From IMG/VR virus record IMGVR_UViG_3300025889_000982, positions 1-23,281 of that record: 23,281 nt of DNA; one strand, 5' to 3'. The position numbers and the translations under genes were made by a program. The notes under the pieces are model-generated. The model ran no database searches. It worked only from the letters and a program-made list of their open reading frames with translations, and was not told the origin of the DNA. Shown piece after piece: positions 2,922 to 9,873 of this stretch; positions within the stretch are counted from its first letter, which is position 1, and each line of letters starts with the position of its first letter. This DNA comes from a virus.

Positions 2922-3017
2922 TTGTCAAGCACTGTAACTTCAAAAAAGTGTAACCCAAACTGTTACCTCGCAAAGCCTTATCCAGATTGAAAAGTTACAA
3001 GGTTACAGTAGGTTACT

Positions 3018-3070
3018 AAATATTTATAAAAGATATTAGATATATAGTATATGTGTATATATATAGTTTT
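3018..3070. other. AT-rich stretch, possible DNA unwinding element
   Basis: Across these 53 bases there are only six G and no C, with runs of TATA steps at 3038-3065. It lies between the oppositely oriented GTAAC groups. Such a tract melts easily, as in origin unwinding elements. It also contains several -10-like words, so promoter activity toward terS cannot be excluded. Confidence 0.5.
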
Positions 3071-3079
3071 CTGGACGGT

Positions 3080-3100
3080 CTGTAACCTGTAACCTGTAAC
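3080..3100 (+). repeat. Three tandem CTGTAAC repeats (7-bp period)
   Basis: CTGTAAC is repeated exactly at 3080-3086, 3087-3093 and 3094-3100. The first copy with its following C (CTGTAACC) is the reverse complement of GGTTACAG at 3001-3008. A 7-bp period puts neighbouring sites on different faces of the helix, unlike typical plasmid iterons of about 20 bp, which may point to a small binding protein or a multimer. Confidence 0.85.
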
Positions 3101-3114
3101 CTGCCCCAAATAAA

Positions 3115-3150: not shown

Positions 3151-3621
3151 ATGACTACAAAGACACCATCTAAGAACGGAAAGTTCTTGGGCCGTCCGTC
3201 AAAGTACGACCCAGCATACTGCGACCAGATCGTAGCCCTTGGAAAAGAGGGCTTATCGCGTTGGCAAATCGCATCTAAACTCAACATCGGGTGGCGCAAT
3301 CTTCAGAACTGGGAAGGTGCGCATGACGATTTTCGGGCAGCGTTGGAAGAAGCACGACTTGATGCGCTATGCTACTGGGAAGAGCTAGCCCAGAATCACA
3401 TGGTTGAGAACCCCGGCGGGCCGAGACTCAACACTGGGTTGTGGAGCCGAAGCATGGCAGCACGCTTCCCAGAGCAATACCGTGAGAACTCCAAAGTCGA
3501 GGTCACAGGCAAGAATGATGGGCCGATCGAGGTGGACATGATCCATGACTTCTCACAAAACCTGTTGGATGATCTCCTAGCAACGCGGCAAGCAGATGCT
3601 AAGTCAAGCAAAGGCAAATGA
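3151..3621 (+). CDS. terS: Terminase small subunit
   Basis: This 156-residue protein begins with a basic, disordered tail and then GRPSKYDPAYCDQIVALGKE, a layout seen in many phage small terminases. Residues about 25-60 (LSRWQIASKLNIGWRNLQNW) form a helix-turn-helix that should bind the packaging initiation site. A helical oligomerisation part follows (FRAALEEARLDALCYWEELA) and then a C-terminal tail, possibly contacting TerL. It lies directly before terL, whose start overlaps its last 26 bp, so the two are probably translated together. The start ATG has no good ribosome site; the next in-frame Met lies too far in to be plausible. The GTAAC block just upstream may be its binding site. The DNA-packaging role is inferred from family pattern and gene order. 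Confidence 0.8.
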   Translation: MTTKTPSKNGKFLGRPSKYDPAYCDQIVALGKEGLSRWQIASKLNIGWRNLQNWEGAHDDFRAALEEARLDALCYWEELAQNHMVENPGGPRLNTGLWSRSMAARFPEQYRENSKVEVTGKNDGPIEVDMIHDFSQNLLDDLLATRQADAKSSKGK

Positions 3622-5023
3622 GTTCGCTGATCGGATCCGCAAAGGTCCGAATCTTAACCTCATGGCGCCTGAGCGTAAAGCTGCGCACAAAGCTCGACAG
3701 AAGTGGCTCACGGTAGCCAATGACCATCAGGTTCCGCCCAAAGGCGATTGGTGGAACATTTGGCTTTTGCTGGCTGGCCGAGGCGCAGGCAAGACCCGCG
3801 CAGCTGCCGAGTGGCTGTGGTGGGAAGCTTGGACTCACCCCAAGACTCGATGGCTTGTCTCCGCGCCCACATCGTCCGATGTCCGCGACGTTTGCTTTGA
3901 GGGCGACTCAGGTCTAATCACCGTCATCCCAGAGCAGTTGGTCGATCACTACACACGATCACTCCATGAGATCTACCTCATCAACGGCACGCTGATTAAA
4001 GGGATCCCTGCGTCCGAGCCGTCCCGCTTCCGAGGCCCGCAGTTCCATGGAGGCTGGTTCGACGAGCTTGCTGCATGGGATTACCTTGACGAGTCGTGGG
4101 ACATGATTCAGTTCGGCATGCGCTTAGGTCAGAAGCCTAAGATGCTATGCACCACAACGCCTAAGCCCAAGCCATTGATCGTGGATCTGGTGAACAGAGA
4201 TGGGGAGGATGTGATATGTACCAAGGCCAGCACGTACGATAACCTCCACAACCTCGCTCCTTCGTTCCAAGCGCAGATCTTGCAGTACGAAGGCACGAAG
4301 CTCGGCAGACAAGAGATTCACGCCGAGATCTTGGATCCCGAAGAAGCTGGTATCATCAAGCGCCCATGGTTCAAGCTTTGGGATAATGAGAAGCCTCTCC
4401 CGAGATTCGAATACGTGCTGCAGTCTTATGACTGCGCAACCAGCGACAAGACCAAGAACGATCCAACTGCCTGCACAGTGTGGGGTATCTTTAGGCCAAG
4501 TCCCGACAAGCCAATGTCTGTGATGCTCATCGATTGCTGGGAAGAGTACATGCAGTACCCTGAATTGCGACCCAAGGTGATCGAGGAGTCCAGCGCCATT
4601 TACGGCGATGAGAATGAGTTTGGTCACGGGAAGAAGGTGGACATGATCCTGATCGAGGACAAGTCAGCCGGCACCCAGCTCCTCCAAGATCTGCAACGTG
4701 CCGGCCTGCCTGTGAGAAGCTACAATCCCGGGAACGCGGACAAGACTACACGTCTGAACATCGTGGCTCCCATCATCCAACGTGGTAGGGTTTACATTCC
4801 CGAGTCCTCGGTCAACCCGGGCATGGCTCGTGATTGGGCCGAGCCTTTGATCGCGCAGCTGTGCTCGTTCCCCGAAGTCCGGCACGATGACTTGGTGGAC
4901 TCCACATCTCAAGCTTTAAGACTTTTGCGAGACTTAGGGTTAATTTCGATCGACCCGGTATACAATCCGGAAGACGACTATGATGAAGATCGTCCAAGAA
5001 GGGTAAACCCTTACGCAGTCTAA
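3596..5023 (+). CDS. terL: Terminase large subunit (packaging ATPase-nuclease)
   Basis: The 475-residue protein has both terminase activities. The N-terminal ATPase shows Walker A LLAGRGAGKTR (58-68; K66, T67), Walker B GGWFDELAAW (152-161; D156, E157) and a coupling motif CTTTPK (185-190). The C-terminal RNase H-like nuclease shows QSYDCA (D279), LIEDKSAG (E354, D355) and RHDDLVDS (D431, D432), the three acidic clusters needed for metal-dependent cutting. It powers DNA entry through the portal and cuts concatemers. The length is normal for the Terminase_6 type. The start at 3596 lies within terS and depends on coupling; Met23 (ATG at 3662) is a possible alternative, but the region before it is coding-like. 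The acidic end (YNPEDDYDEDRPRR) is common in this family. Confidence 0.95.
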   Translation: MLSQAKANEFADRIRKGPNLNLMAPERKAAHKARQKWLTVANDHQVPPKGDWWNIWLLLAGRGAGKTRAAAEWLWWEAWTHPKTRWLVSAPTSSDVRDVCFEGDSGLITVIPEQLVDHYTRSLHEIYLINGTLIKGIPASEPSRFRGPQFHGGWFDELAAWDYLDESWDMIQFGMRLGQKPKMLCTTTPKPKPLIVDLVNRDGEDVICTKASTYDNLHNLAPSFQAQILQYEGTKLGRQEIHAEILDPEEAGIIKRPWFKLWDNEKPLPRFEYVLQSYDCATSDKTKNDPTACTVWGIFRPSPDKPMSVMLIDCWEEYMQYPELRPKVIEESSAIYGDENEFGHGKKVDMILIEDKSAGTQLLQDLQRAGLPVRSYNPGNADKTTRLNIVAPIIQRGRVYIPESSVNPGMARDWAEPLIAQLCSFPEVRHDDLVDSTSQALRLLRDLGLISIDPVYNPEDDYDEDRPRRVNPYAV

Positions 5024-5037
5024 CATAAGGTGCGCAC

Positions 5038-8000
5038 ATGGCAGCAATCTACGATGAGCAAGGTAACTATGTGGGCGATGATGGCACACCTAGTTTAGAT
5101 CAAATGAAACTGGAGCTGGTCAAAAAGAACCAGCCTCTGTCAGCTCAAATCCCCGGCTACGACCGACCAATCCCCCAAGCGCAAAGCAAACCTGATCCCT
5201 TAGGCGCAGCTGCAGGCAACTTCACCGAGTTGGCCACCAAGTTCAATCCGCTGATGATGGCCAAGTCCATGCGCGAGGCTGCAGGCATTGTGACCGTTCC
5301 TGCTGTGGCTGCAGTCAAAGGCGTTGGCGAAAGCATACTCACATCACCTGCTGGTACATACACCTCGGGCAAAGCACCGGCATACGCCGAGCAAGTTGCC
5401 AAGCAGTTCATGGAACAGAATGCGCCGCAAACGCCAATGACTCAGGAATTCGCAGGCGCGATTGCCCCGTACATGGCCGAGCTGCCTGCGTACCTTGGGC
5501 ACCTATCAACCGGCCGCCCAGCATTAACCCCTAACGATCTGCGGGTTATGGGCGCTGAGGCCACGCGCATAGGCCGACAAGTACGCGATATTCCCACCGA
5601 CTTTGCTAATGCGCAATCAGGTTTGCAGAAGTTAGACCCTATTACGGGTCAGCCAACTTATGGCGCCAAGCTGCAAGGCGTGGCTGAAAACGTTGGTGAC
5701 ATCATGGCGCAAAGGGAAATGCAAGGGTTGCCACCCATCCCTGGGCTTCCCGCTTCCATGCAGCCAATGAACACTAAGCTATACGCCATGCGGCCTGCAG
5801 GCTCAAGGCTTACAAATGCTGCGGTGCCTAAAACCGCAAGCCCTGATGCTGCAACGCATATGCCTGCGCAAGACATTGTAAATGACGTTATTGACAATCC
5901 TACAATTACACCATTGCAAGCGGTAACAGAAATTCAAGATCGCATTTTGCAAACTGAAGCCACCGCGCCTGCACGTGAAGCTTTTGCTAATTTTCTAAAG
6001 CAAAAAGCTAATGAGATGTATCCAGATGCACCTACGCCTGCGGACGCGTTGCAAGCGTATAAGACGTTATTTGCAAATAAAGAAGCTTCTGCGCCGCATA
6101 CGTTGCAAATGTATGACGAGTTTTTGCAAACACCTGAAGGCGCGCAATTTAAAGCTGCACACAATTTACCTACTGCTAAGGAAATTACCGCAAGACATGA
6201 AGCTGCAAGCAATTGGCTTAACTCGCAATTTACTAATTACATTAATGAAAAAGTTGGCACACCTGATGAGCCAGCTGCAAAATTGGCCCGTCAAGGCTTA
6301 ACGTTTTTACCCCCTTCAAAAGTAACAGATGCTGCAAATGTATCGCCACGTCTGATAGGCGCTAAACGCGTATCTGCAGGTATGCCTGCACTTACATCTA
6401 CTGATGAAGCTCTTATAGCAGCACAGCAACAATTGCAAGAATTAGAAACGCAGGCACTTATTGCAAAAGACAATAAGATTGCGCAAGAAACTTTGGCGCA
6501 TTCATTGGGATATGGCGCGCAAGGAGGCCCTAACGTTGGGCAATACGCGCCTTTTGCCGAAGCATCTCGCATAGAAGCTAAAGCTGAGAATGCTGTGCGT
6601 AAACATCAACAAGCTGTAAACAACTTACGACTTGGCTCTGCGTATGAGACTGCAGCTGATCTAGCAATTCATGCAACTACAGCAGAAGACTTAAAAGAGA
6701 ATCTTAAATATAAAGAATTGCAATTCTATCCCTCATTACTAAAAACTCCTGGTAATGAAAAGGTATATACTGCAGACAGGCTAACATTGCAGAATCTTGG
6801 ATTTAGAAATCTTGCACTTAAATTTTACAATGATGTTATGTCAGGTGCAATACCATTAGACAAAGTGTCAAAGACAACCGTCGAAAACTATATACGTTCT
6901 ACGGCAGAAGCGCGCATTGCTGAAGAAAAGCGTATGCAACTTGAAGCAGATAAGTATAAAAAGCAAGTTGATGCGCAATTTAAAAAGTCTGCTGAGACGT
7001 ACATACCTAATGATAAAGTCTTCGGCAACGTTGGCGCATTAGAAATCACTGATGCGTTTGAGCCTTTACAAATACGTAAGTTAATAAGTGAAGATACCAC
7101 TGCACTGGATCATTGCGTTGGTGAAGGCGGGTCAGCAAAAAATAAGCCAAACCTTTGGCACCCAAATACTGGCAATCGTAGTTATGAGCCTGCGTATGAT
7201 GTTGCCACAGGCTTGCGTAACCCTAACGCAGGGTCACCAAGACAAGCATATGCTAATGCTGTTGAAAAAGGCGATGAAATAGTTAGTTTTCGCGATATTT
7301 CAACTGGCATACCTGTTGCAACATTTCAATTGGAAAAAAATCGAGCTACACCTGGCAAATTTAATATTGGTTTTGCATCAGGTCTTAAAAATGGTGAGGT
7401 TAAACCTGAATATATACAAGGCATTAAGTCGTATTTAAATAGTCGCAGCGATGCACTTAATAGCCCCGGTTCTGATCTTGCAGGTAATCTTGGCATTTAT
7501 GATCTTGCGCATGCCGATGAATTTAATTTAGCACGCGCTACAGGCTTAACAACTGCAGAGTTTAGAAATCTTAATCTTAATGAATTGCCACGGTTTGTTA
7601 CGCTTGCTGATTTACGTAACTACATTGCTGACGTTCAAGCGCGCGGCGCACAAGCACCTGCTATTGCAAATCAGCGCCCAAGCGAAAGTATTGAAGCTTA
7701 TTTGCAAGGTGGTGTATCGTCAGCAATTGACGGGGTATTGGATTCTTTAAGCACGCAATTTGCAGAAGCCGGAGAAAGTGACAATTTTAGACTAGCTGAA
7801 GTTTTCTTTGAAGGCGTACGTAATGACTTTAATTACGCGCTTGCTACTGAGCGTAATCCTCTTACCGCTGCAGGCAATCTTGCGCAGCTTTTGTATGATC
7901 TTGAGTCCGAATACGCCAATAGCCCTAGAATCGCAGCCAATTTGATTGCTGAAGGTATTCAGGATTTACTTGATGATGTGCGCGGACACATTGATCTTGC

Positions 8001-9873
8001 GTTTGAACGTCAAAGGTTTGAAGCTGCAGAAGCTGCGCGGCCACGTCCATTTGCGCAAAGAGCTGAACCCGCACAAGCGCAAAGACCTGATTACTTACGC
8101 ATGACGCATGACGCGGCGTTGGAAGCTGATAGAGATTGGGGCACTACTACAGCTGATGAGGTACGCTCTGAGATTCGCAATATCACTGAGCAATTAGGCA
8201 TTGATCCGGCAAATGACACTGATGTGTTCATTGCGCAATTACGCCGTGCTGCGGATACTGTTGCATTAAACAGTAGTGAAACTATCTTGCGCGAACTTGC
8301 TGATCGCATGGAAAGTGAATACATGCGCGATTGGGAGCCTGAAGAAGCTGCGCAACCTCGCGAGGCCGATCTTGCTAATCAGCGCAACGACGCCATGATT
8401 CAACTTGAAAATTCATTGAATGATCCAGAATTAAATCCTGATGACTTGCGTTTCTTGGCAAATGGTTTAAGCAATCCAGCAGATCAAACTGCAAACAGTC
8501 CGTGGATCGCCTTAACTGAAAGAGAGCGTCGTGAGTACGCGTTAGCACTTCGTGAACGCGCAAACTACATTGAATTTAGCCCTGCAGACTTTGCAATACG
8601 TCTTTCAAATGAGGCGGGCGCGGATATAGCTGACCTGCGTGACACTGTTCAAGCATTGAATGATGGCACCTTTGACCATGAAGTTTTGCGTGGTTTGCCT
8701 CCCGTAGAGCGTGATCGTGCTGCGCAGCGTACAGCATTGAACCTAAACCATATTCTGCAAGGTATGGAGACTGACGCGCGGCAACAAGTTCGCGCAGCTG
8801 AACCTGCAACACAACCCTTTGACTTTGCCGGCATGGTCGATGCTGTAATGGGTGATATGTCTGCTGCGTTGCCTGATCCTGTGGTAGAACGTGTTAGCAC
8901 TATTGCGTATCGCATAGCAGAACGCACCAACCCTCGTCTTGACCCTATAGGCTATGCACAAGCATTACGCGCTGTAAATGCAGCTAATGAACATGTTGCG
9001 GTTGTTAGCGCGTTGAATGATCTTGCTGACAGAATTACGCAAACGCAGCAACCTGCAAATCAAAGCGTAAATATTGTTGCGAATAGGCCTGCGCAACAGT
9101 ATATGCGCGCGGCAGAAGACATTGCGAATATACTAGATGAGTCTGAATACGGGGATTACGCAACAGGTGAAGTTGCAGCACGTCAGATTGATAGACATTT
9201 ACGTGACTTACAGCAAGGTGGCGTACAAGCGTTTGAAGATCTTCTGGGTATGGCCTCACTTGAGTACAACTGGTCACCTGAATTGCTGCGAGCGCTTGAA
9301 ATTGTGTTAAGTGACCTCGCCACAAGATACCGTGACATGGGTGATGGCGAAGGCAATGCTGATGGTGGTCCAGTTCGTGGCTACCAAGCCGGTGGATCAG
9401 TCAAGAAACCCGAAGTCAAGACTCCTTGGCTGTTCAGTGTCCCGACTTACTCGGAGACTGTGGCCTATGAGATGTACCCCGGCCAAAAAGGGCAGAACGA
9501 CCAGCGTGATGCGGCACGACATATGTTGGCTGCAGGTACTCTTTCACGAAAGTATGGCCCAGGAGTGGCTGAGTTCTTAGGCAAAGCCCATGAGTTCACG
9601 ACTTCCCCGCTTCAAGCTGTCAAAACTCTGTTTGGCGGGCAAATGCCTGCCGACTATGGTATGGATACCCACAACAACGCGGTTGGAGCTCAGTTGGGGC
9701 AACGTGCTAAGTCACAAGCCGAGCTGGAAGATCTCGTACAAGCGGAGGCTGAACGTGCATCTCGCACACAAACGCCGGGTCAAGCCTTCATCAAGAAGGC
9801 AAATGGTGGTATAGTCCAACAAAATCCGACTACAGACCAAATGCGGTATGCACTTATGATGCGGAGAAAATAA
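5038..9873 (+). CDS. Giant multidomain (polyvalent-type) phage protein with PcfJ-like and DUF6973-like segments
   Basis: This 1611-residue protein lies between terL and the portal gene. A ribosome site AAGGTG precedes its ATG, and the portal gene starts 3 bp after its stop. The N-terminal 270 residues are Pro/Ala-rich. A long helical, Gln/Ala/Glu-rich interior follows. Residues 690-698 (LDHCVGEGG), with EIVSFRD (747-753) and PVATFQLEKN just after, match the pattern of PcfJ-like domains, whose function is unknown. Near the end are GG motifs (1442-1457), then QRDAARHMLAAGTL (R1494, H1495), GKAHEF (H1518, E1519) and MDTHNNAVG (D1543, H1545, N1546, N1547). That His / His-Glu / Asp-x-His-Asn-Asn set resembles DUF6973 and suggests an enzyme site. 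It may be injected with DNA or act in the virion; no membrane segment or signal peptide is evident. Base use shifts inside the gene. Domain calls are by eye; overall function is unknown. Confidence 0.72.
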   Translation: MAAIYDEQGNYVGDDGTPSLDQMKLELVKKNQPLSAQIPGYDRPIPQAQSKPDPLGAAAGNFTELATKFNPLMMAKSMREAAGIVTVPAVAAVKGVGESILTSPAGTYTSGKAPAYAEQVAKQFMEQNAPQTPMTQEFAGAIAPYMAELPAYLGHLSTGRPALTPNDLRVMGAEATRIGRQVRDIPTDFANAQSGLQKLDPITGQPTYGAKLQGVAENVGDIMAQREMQGLPPIPGLPASMQPMNTKLYAMRPAGSRLTNAAVPKTASPDAATHMPAQDIVNDVIDNPTITPLQAVTEIQDRILQTEATAPAREAFANFLKQKANEMYPDAPTPADALQAYKTLFANKEASAPHTLQMYDEFLQTPEGAQFKAAHNLPTAKEITARHEAASNWLNSQFTNYINEKVGTPDEPAAKLARQGLTFLPPSKVTDAANVSPRLIGAKRVSAGMPALTSTDEALIAAQQQLQELETQALIAKDNKIAQETLAHSLGYGAQGGPNVGQYAPFAEASRIEAKAENAVRKHQQAVNNLRLGSAYETAADLAIHATTAEDLKENLKYKELQFYPSLLKTPGNEKVYTADRLTLQNLGFRNLALKFYNDVMSGAIPLDKVSKTTVENYIRSTAEARIAEEKRMQLEADKYKKQVDAQFKKSAETYIPNDKVFGNVGALEITDAFEPLQIRKLISEDTTALDHCVGEGGSAKNKPNLWHPNTGNRSYEPAYDVATGLRNPNAGSPRQAYANAVEKGDEIVSFRDISTGIPVATFQLEKNRATPGKFNIGFASGLKNGEVKPEYIQGIKSYLNSRSDALNSPGSDLAGNLGIYDLAHADEFNLARATGLTTAEFRNLNLNELPRFVTLADLRNYIADVQARGAQAPAIANQRPSESIEAYLQGGVSSAIDGVLDSLSTQFAEAGESDNFRLAEVFFEGVRNDFNYALATERNPLTAAGNLAQLLYDLESEYANSPRIAANLIAEGIQDLLDDVRGHIDLAFERQRFEAAEAARPRPFAQRAEPAQAQRPDYLRMTHDAALEADRDWGTTTADEVRSEIRNITEQLGIDPANDTDVFIAQLRRAADTVALNSSETILRELADRMESEYMRDWEPEEAAQPREADLANQRNDAMIQLENSLNDPELNPDDLRFLANGLSNPADQTANSPWIALTERERREYALALRERANYIEFSPADFAIRLSNEAGADIADLRDTVQALNDGTFDHEVLRGLPPVERDRAAQRTALNLNHILQGMETDARQQVRAAEPATQPFDFAGMVDAVMGDMSAALPDPVVERVSTIAYRIAERTNPRLDPIGYAQALRAVNAANEHVAVVSALNDLADRITQTQQPANQSVNIVANRPAQQYMRAAEDIANILDESEYGDYATGEVAARQIDRHLRDLQQGGVQAFEDLLGMASLEYNWSPELLRALEIVLSDLATRYRDMGDGEGNADGGPVRGYQAGGSVKKPEVKTPWLFSVPTYSETVAYEMYPGQKGQNDQRDAARHMLAAGTLSRKYGPGVAEFLGKAHEFTTSPLQAVKTLFGGQMPADYGMDTHNNAVGAQLGQRAKSQAELEDLVQAEAERASRTQTPGQAFIKKANGGIVQQNPTTDQMRYALMMRRK
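5870..9390 (+). other. Composition island inside the giant gene
   Basis: Between about 5870 and 9390 the reading frame stays open but codon choice changes. GCA, CAA, TTG, AAT, GAA and ACA dominate and GC content drops visibly (for example 6660-6960). The ends of the same gene and its neighbours use more GCC, CTG, ATC, AAG and GGC. TTGCAA and GCGCAA words are very frequent inside. The pattern suggests a long insert from another source between older terminal parts. Boundaries are approximate and judged by eye. Confidence 0.55.

Follow-up and report, generated by a model that had tools for sequence, protein, structure and literature searches.

A repeat array 3' of a phage primase-helicase gene as a probable replication origin that co-varies with the predicted wing of the encoded protein

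We propose that a block of short repeats at positions 2933-3101 of the analyzed viral DNA is a phage replication origin, probably bound by the phage's own primase-helicase in a manner resembling that of the P4 alpha protein, and from sequence comparison we assign this reading a probability of about 0.82. An origin had been one of the possibilities raised in an earlier note on this DNA, and it is now supported by the conservation of the array, by its co-variation with the primase-helicase and by a prediction made for the cultured phage NrS-1. By computation, we show the array and how it is conserved, its co-variation with the protein, the structural class to which the protein belongs and the outcome of the NrS-1 prediction. 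The window, i.e., the whole stretch of 23,281 nucleotides that was analyzed, corresponds to a separate linear virus record, and coordinates refer to it unless stated otherwise.

The box array and its conservation

The array lies between the gene for the primase-helicase (834-2921, + strand), the proposed initiator, and terS (3151-3621, + strand), which is followed by terL (starting at 3596) and, just after terL, by a single reading frame of 1611 aa (5038-9873) with DUF6973 near its C-terminus. Between positions 2922 and 3150, GTAAC or GTTAC words occur nine times, whereas 10,000 Markov-simulated sequences of matching composition contained 1.1 on average and never more than 6, and GTTACA/TGTAAC is the most clustered hexamer in the window. 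The words read GTAAC on the + strand at 2934, 2950, 3082, 3089, and 3096 and GTTAC at 2962, 2994, 3002, and 3012, so that all nine copies described in the earlier note were recovered at its positions. Across the whole 23-kb window, GTAAC occurs 43 times against 32.5 ± 6 expected, which is not a significant enrichment; the genome-wide density check that the note had suggested thus shows the word to be only mildly frequent overall, and the signal is the local cluster.

The boxes form three groups. Group 1 (2933-2966, + strand), the least conserved, consists of TGTAAC at 2933 and 2949 and of TGTTAC, with the other central base, at 2961. Group 2 (2994-3017, - strand) comprises the inverted boxes at 2994, 3002, and 3012, and group 3 (3080-3101, + strand) three direct boxes in an exact 7-bp tandem (CTGTAACCTGTAACCTGTAACC), within which the previously noted CTGTAAC triplet at 3080-3100 was confirmed. 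Two details of the earlier description were corrected. While four GTTAC words had been taken as reversed, this is true of those at 2994, 3002, and 3012, but the box at 2962 is a direct box with the other central base, because its flanks (CTGTTACCT) are oriented like those of the direct boxes. Likewise, the reported spacing of 7-10 bp describes group 3 (7 bp) and group 2 (8 and 10 bp) but not group 1 (16 and 12 bp).

The inverted and direct boxes are separated by an AT tract (3017-3079, without strand), which is 80% AT and represents the proposed unwinding element. The C-free stretch that had been pointed out here is indeed present and, at 54 nt (3017-3070), exceeds every other C-free run in the window, the runner-up measuring 25 nt. 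At the end of the tract lies a TATATAGTTTTC element (3060-3071, + strand), of which an AGTTTT-like version was found in 67/67 loci by a loose pattern; an opening point, a primer start or a terS promoter are candidate roles for it. Multiple oriented repeats on either side of an AT-rich tract correspond to the layout of an iteron origin. The GC skew, which had also been recommended as a check, showed no clear turn at the array in a scan of the window, itself a fragment.

As the earlier note had proposed, we compared the gap upstream of terS among relatives, and a comparable array was found 3' of the same primase-helicase gene. It is present between the primase stop and terS in 34 close relatives (66-100% identity), where it usually comprises nine boxes; an inserted stretch precedes it in L021-L024 and L029 (our locus labels), so that it begins later. 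In L021 and L022, the insert 3' of the primase stop has an inverted repeat (GATCACCTTCTATT...AATAGAAAGTGATC). In the wider family of 67 non-redundant loci, direct boxes follow inverted ones across an AT tract with a median length of 65 bp and 80% AT, FFF-RRR-tract-FFF being the commonest box order.

Three box forms were found, TGTAAC, TGTTAC, and TGTAAT, the last in L108, L134, L135, L141, L142, L144, and L145, and an array switches nearly as a whole: the swap between GTAAC and GTTAC among relatives affects all or nearly all boxes together. Between the window and L004, which encode 98% identical proteins, all three central bases of group 2 differ, compared with 7/64 differences outside the boxes. 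Group 1 is the laxest in this respect, with the window box at 2962 and two L028 boxes still carrying the other base. Since GTAAC and GTTAC are reverse complements of each other, a type switch resembles a reversal; a reversed box orientation between types was nevertheless rejected, as the sense of the flanks is kept and only the central base changes. In both C-ending types, the base after the pentamer is C or T in ~99% of boxes. An avoidance of own-type boxes elsewhere was not seen, TGTTAC being if anything commoner in loci of the TGTTAC type. Three further words, at 485, 579, and 2823, are present outside the array and had been tentatively linked to control of the replication gene. The word at 579 is retained as GAGGTAAC whichever box type a locus has, and that at 485 is confined to the nearest relatives; they do not follow the box type, and we abandoned them as control words.

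GTAAC or GTTAC arrays around AT-rich tracts were additionally observed in unrelated virus contigs (L040, L043, L045, L076, L077, L080, L081, L084-L086, L091, and L093). Opposed groups totalling seven TGTTAC boxes, with no AT-rich tract between them, are also found in a chromosomal region (L149, 2520-2800) of the complete Anaeromyxobacter oryzae genome, where they lie about 2 kb upstream of the gene for a distant relative of the primase. Unrelated tandem repeats that were also matched by the 21-mer scans (e.g., L046, L055, and L092) were set aside.

Wing residues of the primase-helicase and box type

Analysis with Pfam, PHROGs, AlphaFold2, and Foldseek divided the primase-helicase into DUF3854 (residues 101-239), a DUF5906 SF3-type helicase domain (411-518; Pfam E 2.4e-18) and a C-terminal winged helix (about 586-660), and Foldseek matched the protein to NrS-1, SaPI5, and D5-type helicases. 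In the AlphaFold2 model, the C-terminal winged helix (pLDDT 84) shows helices and a wing hairpin, with a helix at 628-638 and wing strands at 640-649 and 652-660. The profile of this domain gave just a weak PU.1 match among solved structures, which we take as general winged-helix likeness, and a Foldseek search with the C-terminal model returned nothing below E 0.1, with RFX1 and P4 absent from its best matches. Compared to L004, codons 640-670 (2751-2843) differ by 29% and codons 1-639 by 6%; judging from this divergence, the wing codons of the window may constitute a replaced or fast-evolving cassette.

Two wing residues predict the box type, namely residue 646 (2769-2771, + strand; ATG, Met) for box base 3 and residue 648 (2775-2777, + strand; AAA, Lys) for box base 5; lying two positions apart on the first wing strand, they should face the same way. 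Among 70 non-redundant loci, residue 646 predicts TGTTAC without error (33/33 with Leu; 0/37 with Met, Val, Ala or Pro), and it is the single column among 695 that splits TGTTAC from the other types errorlessly. At residue 648, the same loci have Asn, Ser or Thr with TGTAAT and Lys or Arg with the C-ending boxes, again without error; columns 661 and 683 split TGTAAT equally perfectly, and 648 is therefore not proven to be unique. L004, for instance, carries Leu646 and Lys648, and the TGTAAT-type L141 carries Pro646 and Thr648. In the close set, perfectly discriminating columns of the primase are confined to residues 646-669, and no such column exists in TerS or TerL. The best columns of TerS and TerL score 0.912 and 0.879, compared to 1.000 for primase residue 646, and these lower values are roughly what could be expected from common ancestry alone. 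Pro653, perfect in the close set, was discarded as the deciding residue, since it scores 0.914 in the wide set.

On a tree of primase residues 1-600, from which the C-terminus was left out, the box type changes at least nine times, and supported independent pairs agree in 6/6 cases for Leu646 (p 0.031) and in 3/3 for residue 648. Columns 646 and 648 were chosen after seeing the data; held-out loci and the NrS-1 prediction serve as guards. The held-out loci, which came from a later scan and have the same wing, all fit: L167 and L171-L173, with Ala or Ser at 646 and Ser648, have TGTAAT boxes; L188 (Val, Arg), which is close to L128, has TGTAAC; and L181 (Leu, Lys) has TGTTAC while being 82% identical to the TGTAAT-type L144. 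Distant proteins found via their arrays agree where the residue belongs to the vocabulary (L039, L041, L044, and L083), the TGTTAC-type exceptions at 646, Thr in L082 and Gln in L088, being outside of it. A second, longer wing type (e.g., VVKLSKNAADSGTERTVRGW) takes the place of the usual wing in L191-L206, L209, L215, L232, L234, and L235. In these proteins, the position corresponding to 648 in an alignment made by eye is Lys with TGTAAC, Tyr, Phe or Leu with TGTAAT, and Thr with a mixed array (L203/L204). The divergence of the window's wing codons from those of L004 suggests that recombination may also move the wing jointly with its boxes; a recombined cassette would explain their linkage, but not that one residue predicts the box across cassettes.

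NrS-1 and other known systems

For the cultured phage NrS-1, whose wing carries Val and Lys, TGTAAC boxes were predicted, and this prediction was recorded before the locus was read. The NrS-1 locus contains 12 TGTAAC words in 6,951 bases, 11 of which fall within 316 bases (P about 2e-14 for even scatter). This stretch (L248, AB746912, 3980-4295) begins 11 bases past the end of the primase gene and overlaps the annotated small gene NRS1_29. TGTAAT is absent from the 316 bases, and the single TGTTAC of the locus lies within them, overlapping a TGTAAC box on the other strand. The recognition (priming) site of the NrS-1 primase, TTTGGTTA according to Zhu et al. 2017 (cited in PMC8718748), has a single copy in the locus, which lies within one TGTAAC box (TGTAACCAAA). 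PMC7102993 notes that the copies of this sequence in the genome may act as the origin.

The NrS-1 polymerase (PDB 6k9c, 6lrb) is the nearest solved relative of the window protein: helicase and tail are homologous (profile E 4e-23, residues 358-655), and its C-terminal region is the best Foldseek match (E 9e-17). As in the window, a TGTAAC array directly follows the primase gene. However, NrS-1 has an N-terminal PrimPol domain, whereas the window protein has DUF3854 and no PrimPol was found by Pfam; furthermore, with 11 boxes over about 316 bp, the NrS-1 array exceeds that of the window in length and, while it follows the primase, does not abut terS. PriRep1 of SaPI5 (PDB 7ola, 7pds) belongs to the same helicase class by fold (E about 1e-6). 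In several named phages with DUF5906-like primases, this box is not present. Other repeats were seen directly 3' of the primase in PG1 (CCCAACA, L241), Turba (CCAACAC, L243), ZQG1 (GGTCCGA, L245), and A1432 (AATCTAA, L246), which suggests that the layout may be general, with a different box sequence.

Gp-alpha of P4 (NC_001609; origin-binding domain PDB 1ka8) is likewise an SF3 primase-helicase with a C-terminal winged helix, and P4 ori and crr are made up of short repeats in both orientations, as is the window array next to its initiator gene. The crr repeats (CTGTTCACC) sit directly 3' of alpha, as the array does in the window, and in box orientation correspond to CTGTTACC plus one extra C. 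The type-1 repeat TGTTCACC, located at 4291-4590 and 9310-9413 in P4 (L237), is not matched, the window-family box TGTWACY being one base shorter. Between the P4 origin-binding domain and the window C-terminus, no sequence similarity was detectable (hhalign probability 0). The primase-helicase thus does not belong to the P4 alpha family by sequence, but it most likely works like P4 alpha. Gp-alpha binds its repeats, opens the DNA and primes in broadly the manner proposed below.

The wing of RFX1 reads DNA in the major groove (PMC4333399), X-box half-sites include GTTACC (PMC2375033), and the P4 origin-binding and RFX1 domains have been described as similar winged helices (PMC10516667). RFX1 (PDB 1dp7) is a eukaryotic transcription factor that resembles the window wing in mechanism and motif only, and because the best Foldseek matches omit both proteins, the comparison to RFX1 and P4 is only a mechanistic one.

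Alternative explanations and proposed mechanism

P4 also provides the model for the best-surviving alternative, namely that the primase-helicase binds the array as a control or helper site, similar to P4 crr or to a plasmid incompatibility array, with strand opening elsewhere. P4 has its annotated origin, which carries type-1 repeats of its own, at another place than crr, the repeat block immediately 3' of alpha. In the window, by contrast, opposed boxes enclose the AT tract and a second cluster of boxes was not detected, and the known NrS-1 priming site falls inside the array, so that we consider a helper site unlikely. Considerably less probable is an operator at which transcription of the primase or terS gene would be controlled, be it by the primase-helicase or by a different regulator. 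The array does lie between these two genes, and self-regulation is common among initiators; yet the array comes after the initiator gene, the word at 579 upstream of that gene is independent of box type, and opposed groups around a conserved AT tract exceed the needs of an operator.

The position immediately before terS had led the earlier note to consider a packaging start site (pac/cos) recognized by TerS as well. This has become very improbable: the box type is tracked perfectly by a primase residue but by no residue of TerS or TerL, which leaves TerS unsupported as the alternative binder, and the NrS-1 array follows the primase rather than neighboring terS. Finally, complementarity to group 2 is seen in groups 1 and 3, and changes of the central base preserve pairing, but it is very unlikely that the boxes form alternative hairpin arms in RNA or single-stranded DNA, given that single-stranded DNA folding is ordinary (z -1.7), no Rfam family matches, box 2962 breaks the pairing pattern and pairing leaves the link to the wing residues unexplained.

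We therefore return to the array as an origin read by the primase-helicase, and infer that this protein binds the array, opens the DNA and primes there, with residues 646 and 648 touching bases directly. Copies of the protein would bind TGTWACY boxes via the wing of the C-terminal winged helix, and the inverted and direct boxes across the AT tract would set two initiator groups face to face. The SF3 helicase domains would then assemble and the AT tract open, with the same protein unwinding and priming. Residue 646 would set base 3 of the pentamer (T with Leu; A with Val, Met, Ala or Ile) and residue 648 base 5 (C with Lys or Arg; T with Asn, Ser or Thr), and because these residues set the bases that are read, array and wing would change together. 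We regard it as somewhat probable that this constitutes a wing recognition code, in which 646 specifies base 3 and 648 base 5, by which whole origins were recoded at least nine times within the family, leaving close relatives in mutually incompatible replication types, and which also applies to NrS-1 and further distant phages.

Co-variation of initiator and origin at the level of modules is already known from the satellites of Vibrio, in which the DNA-binding domain of PLE RepA and the origin co-vary as a module and have been swapped repeatedly (PMC8263062). That system differs from the present one, as it involves an unrelated RepA_N domain, swaps of whole domains and ~30-bp iterons, while the window family shows a recoding by one base and one residue. 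In the literature searched, which took in a minority of subscription papers, we found no case of a whole origin recoded by one residue and one base.

How an initiator and its many binding sites can shift specificity together while function is kept is an old question, and the family described here offers very similar phage proteins with switched arrays, in which the responsible residue is narrowed to one or two positions. It also offers a sequence rule for locating origins in uncultured phages with such a primase, and it places the published NrS-1 priming sequence within an iteron array. Furthermore, our findings suggest the existence of replication-incompatibility types; speculatively, the forces behind them could be competing phages, satellites or defence directed at origins.
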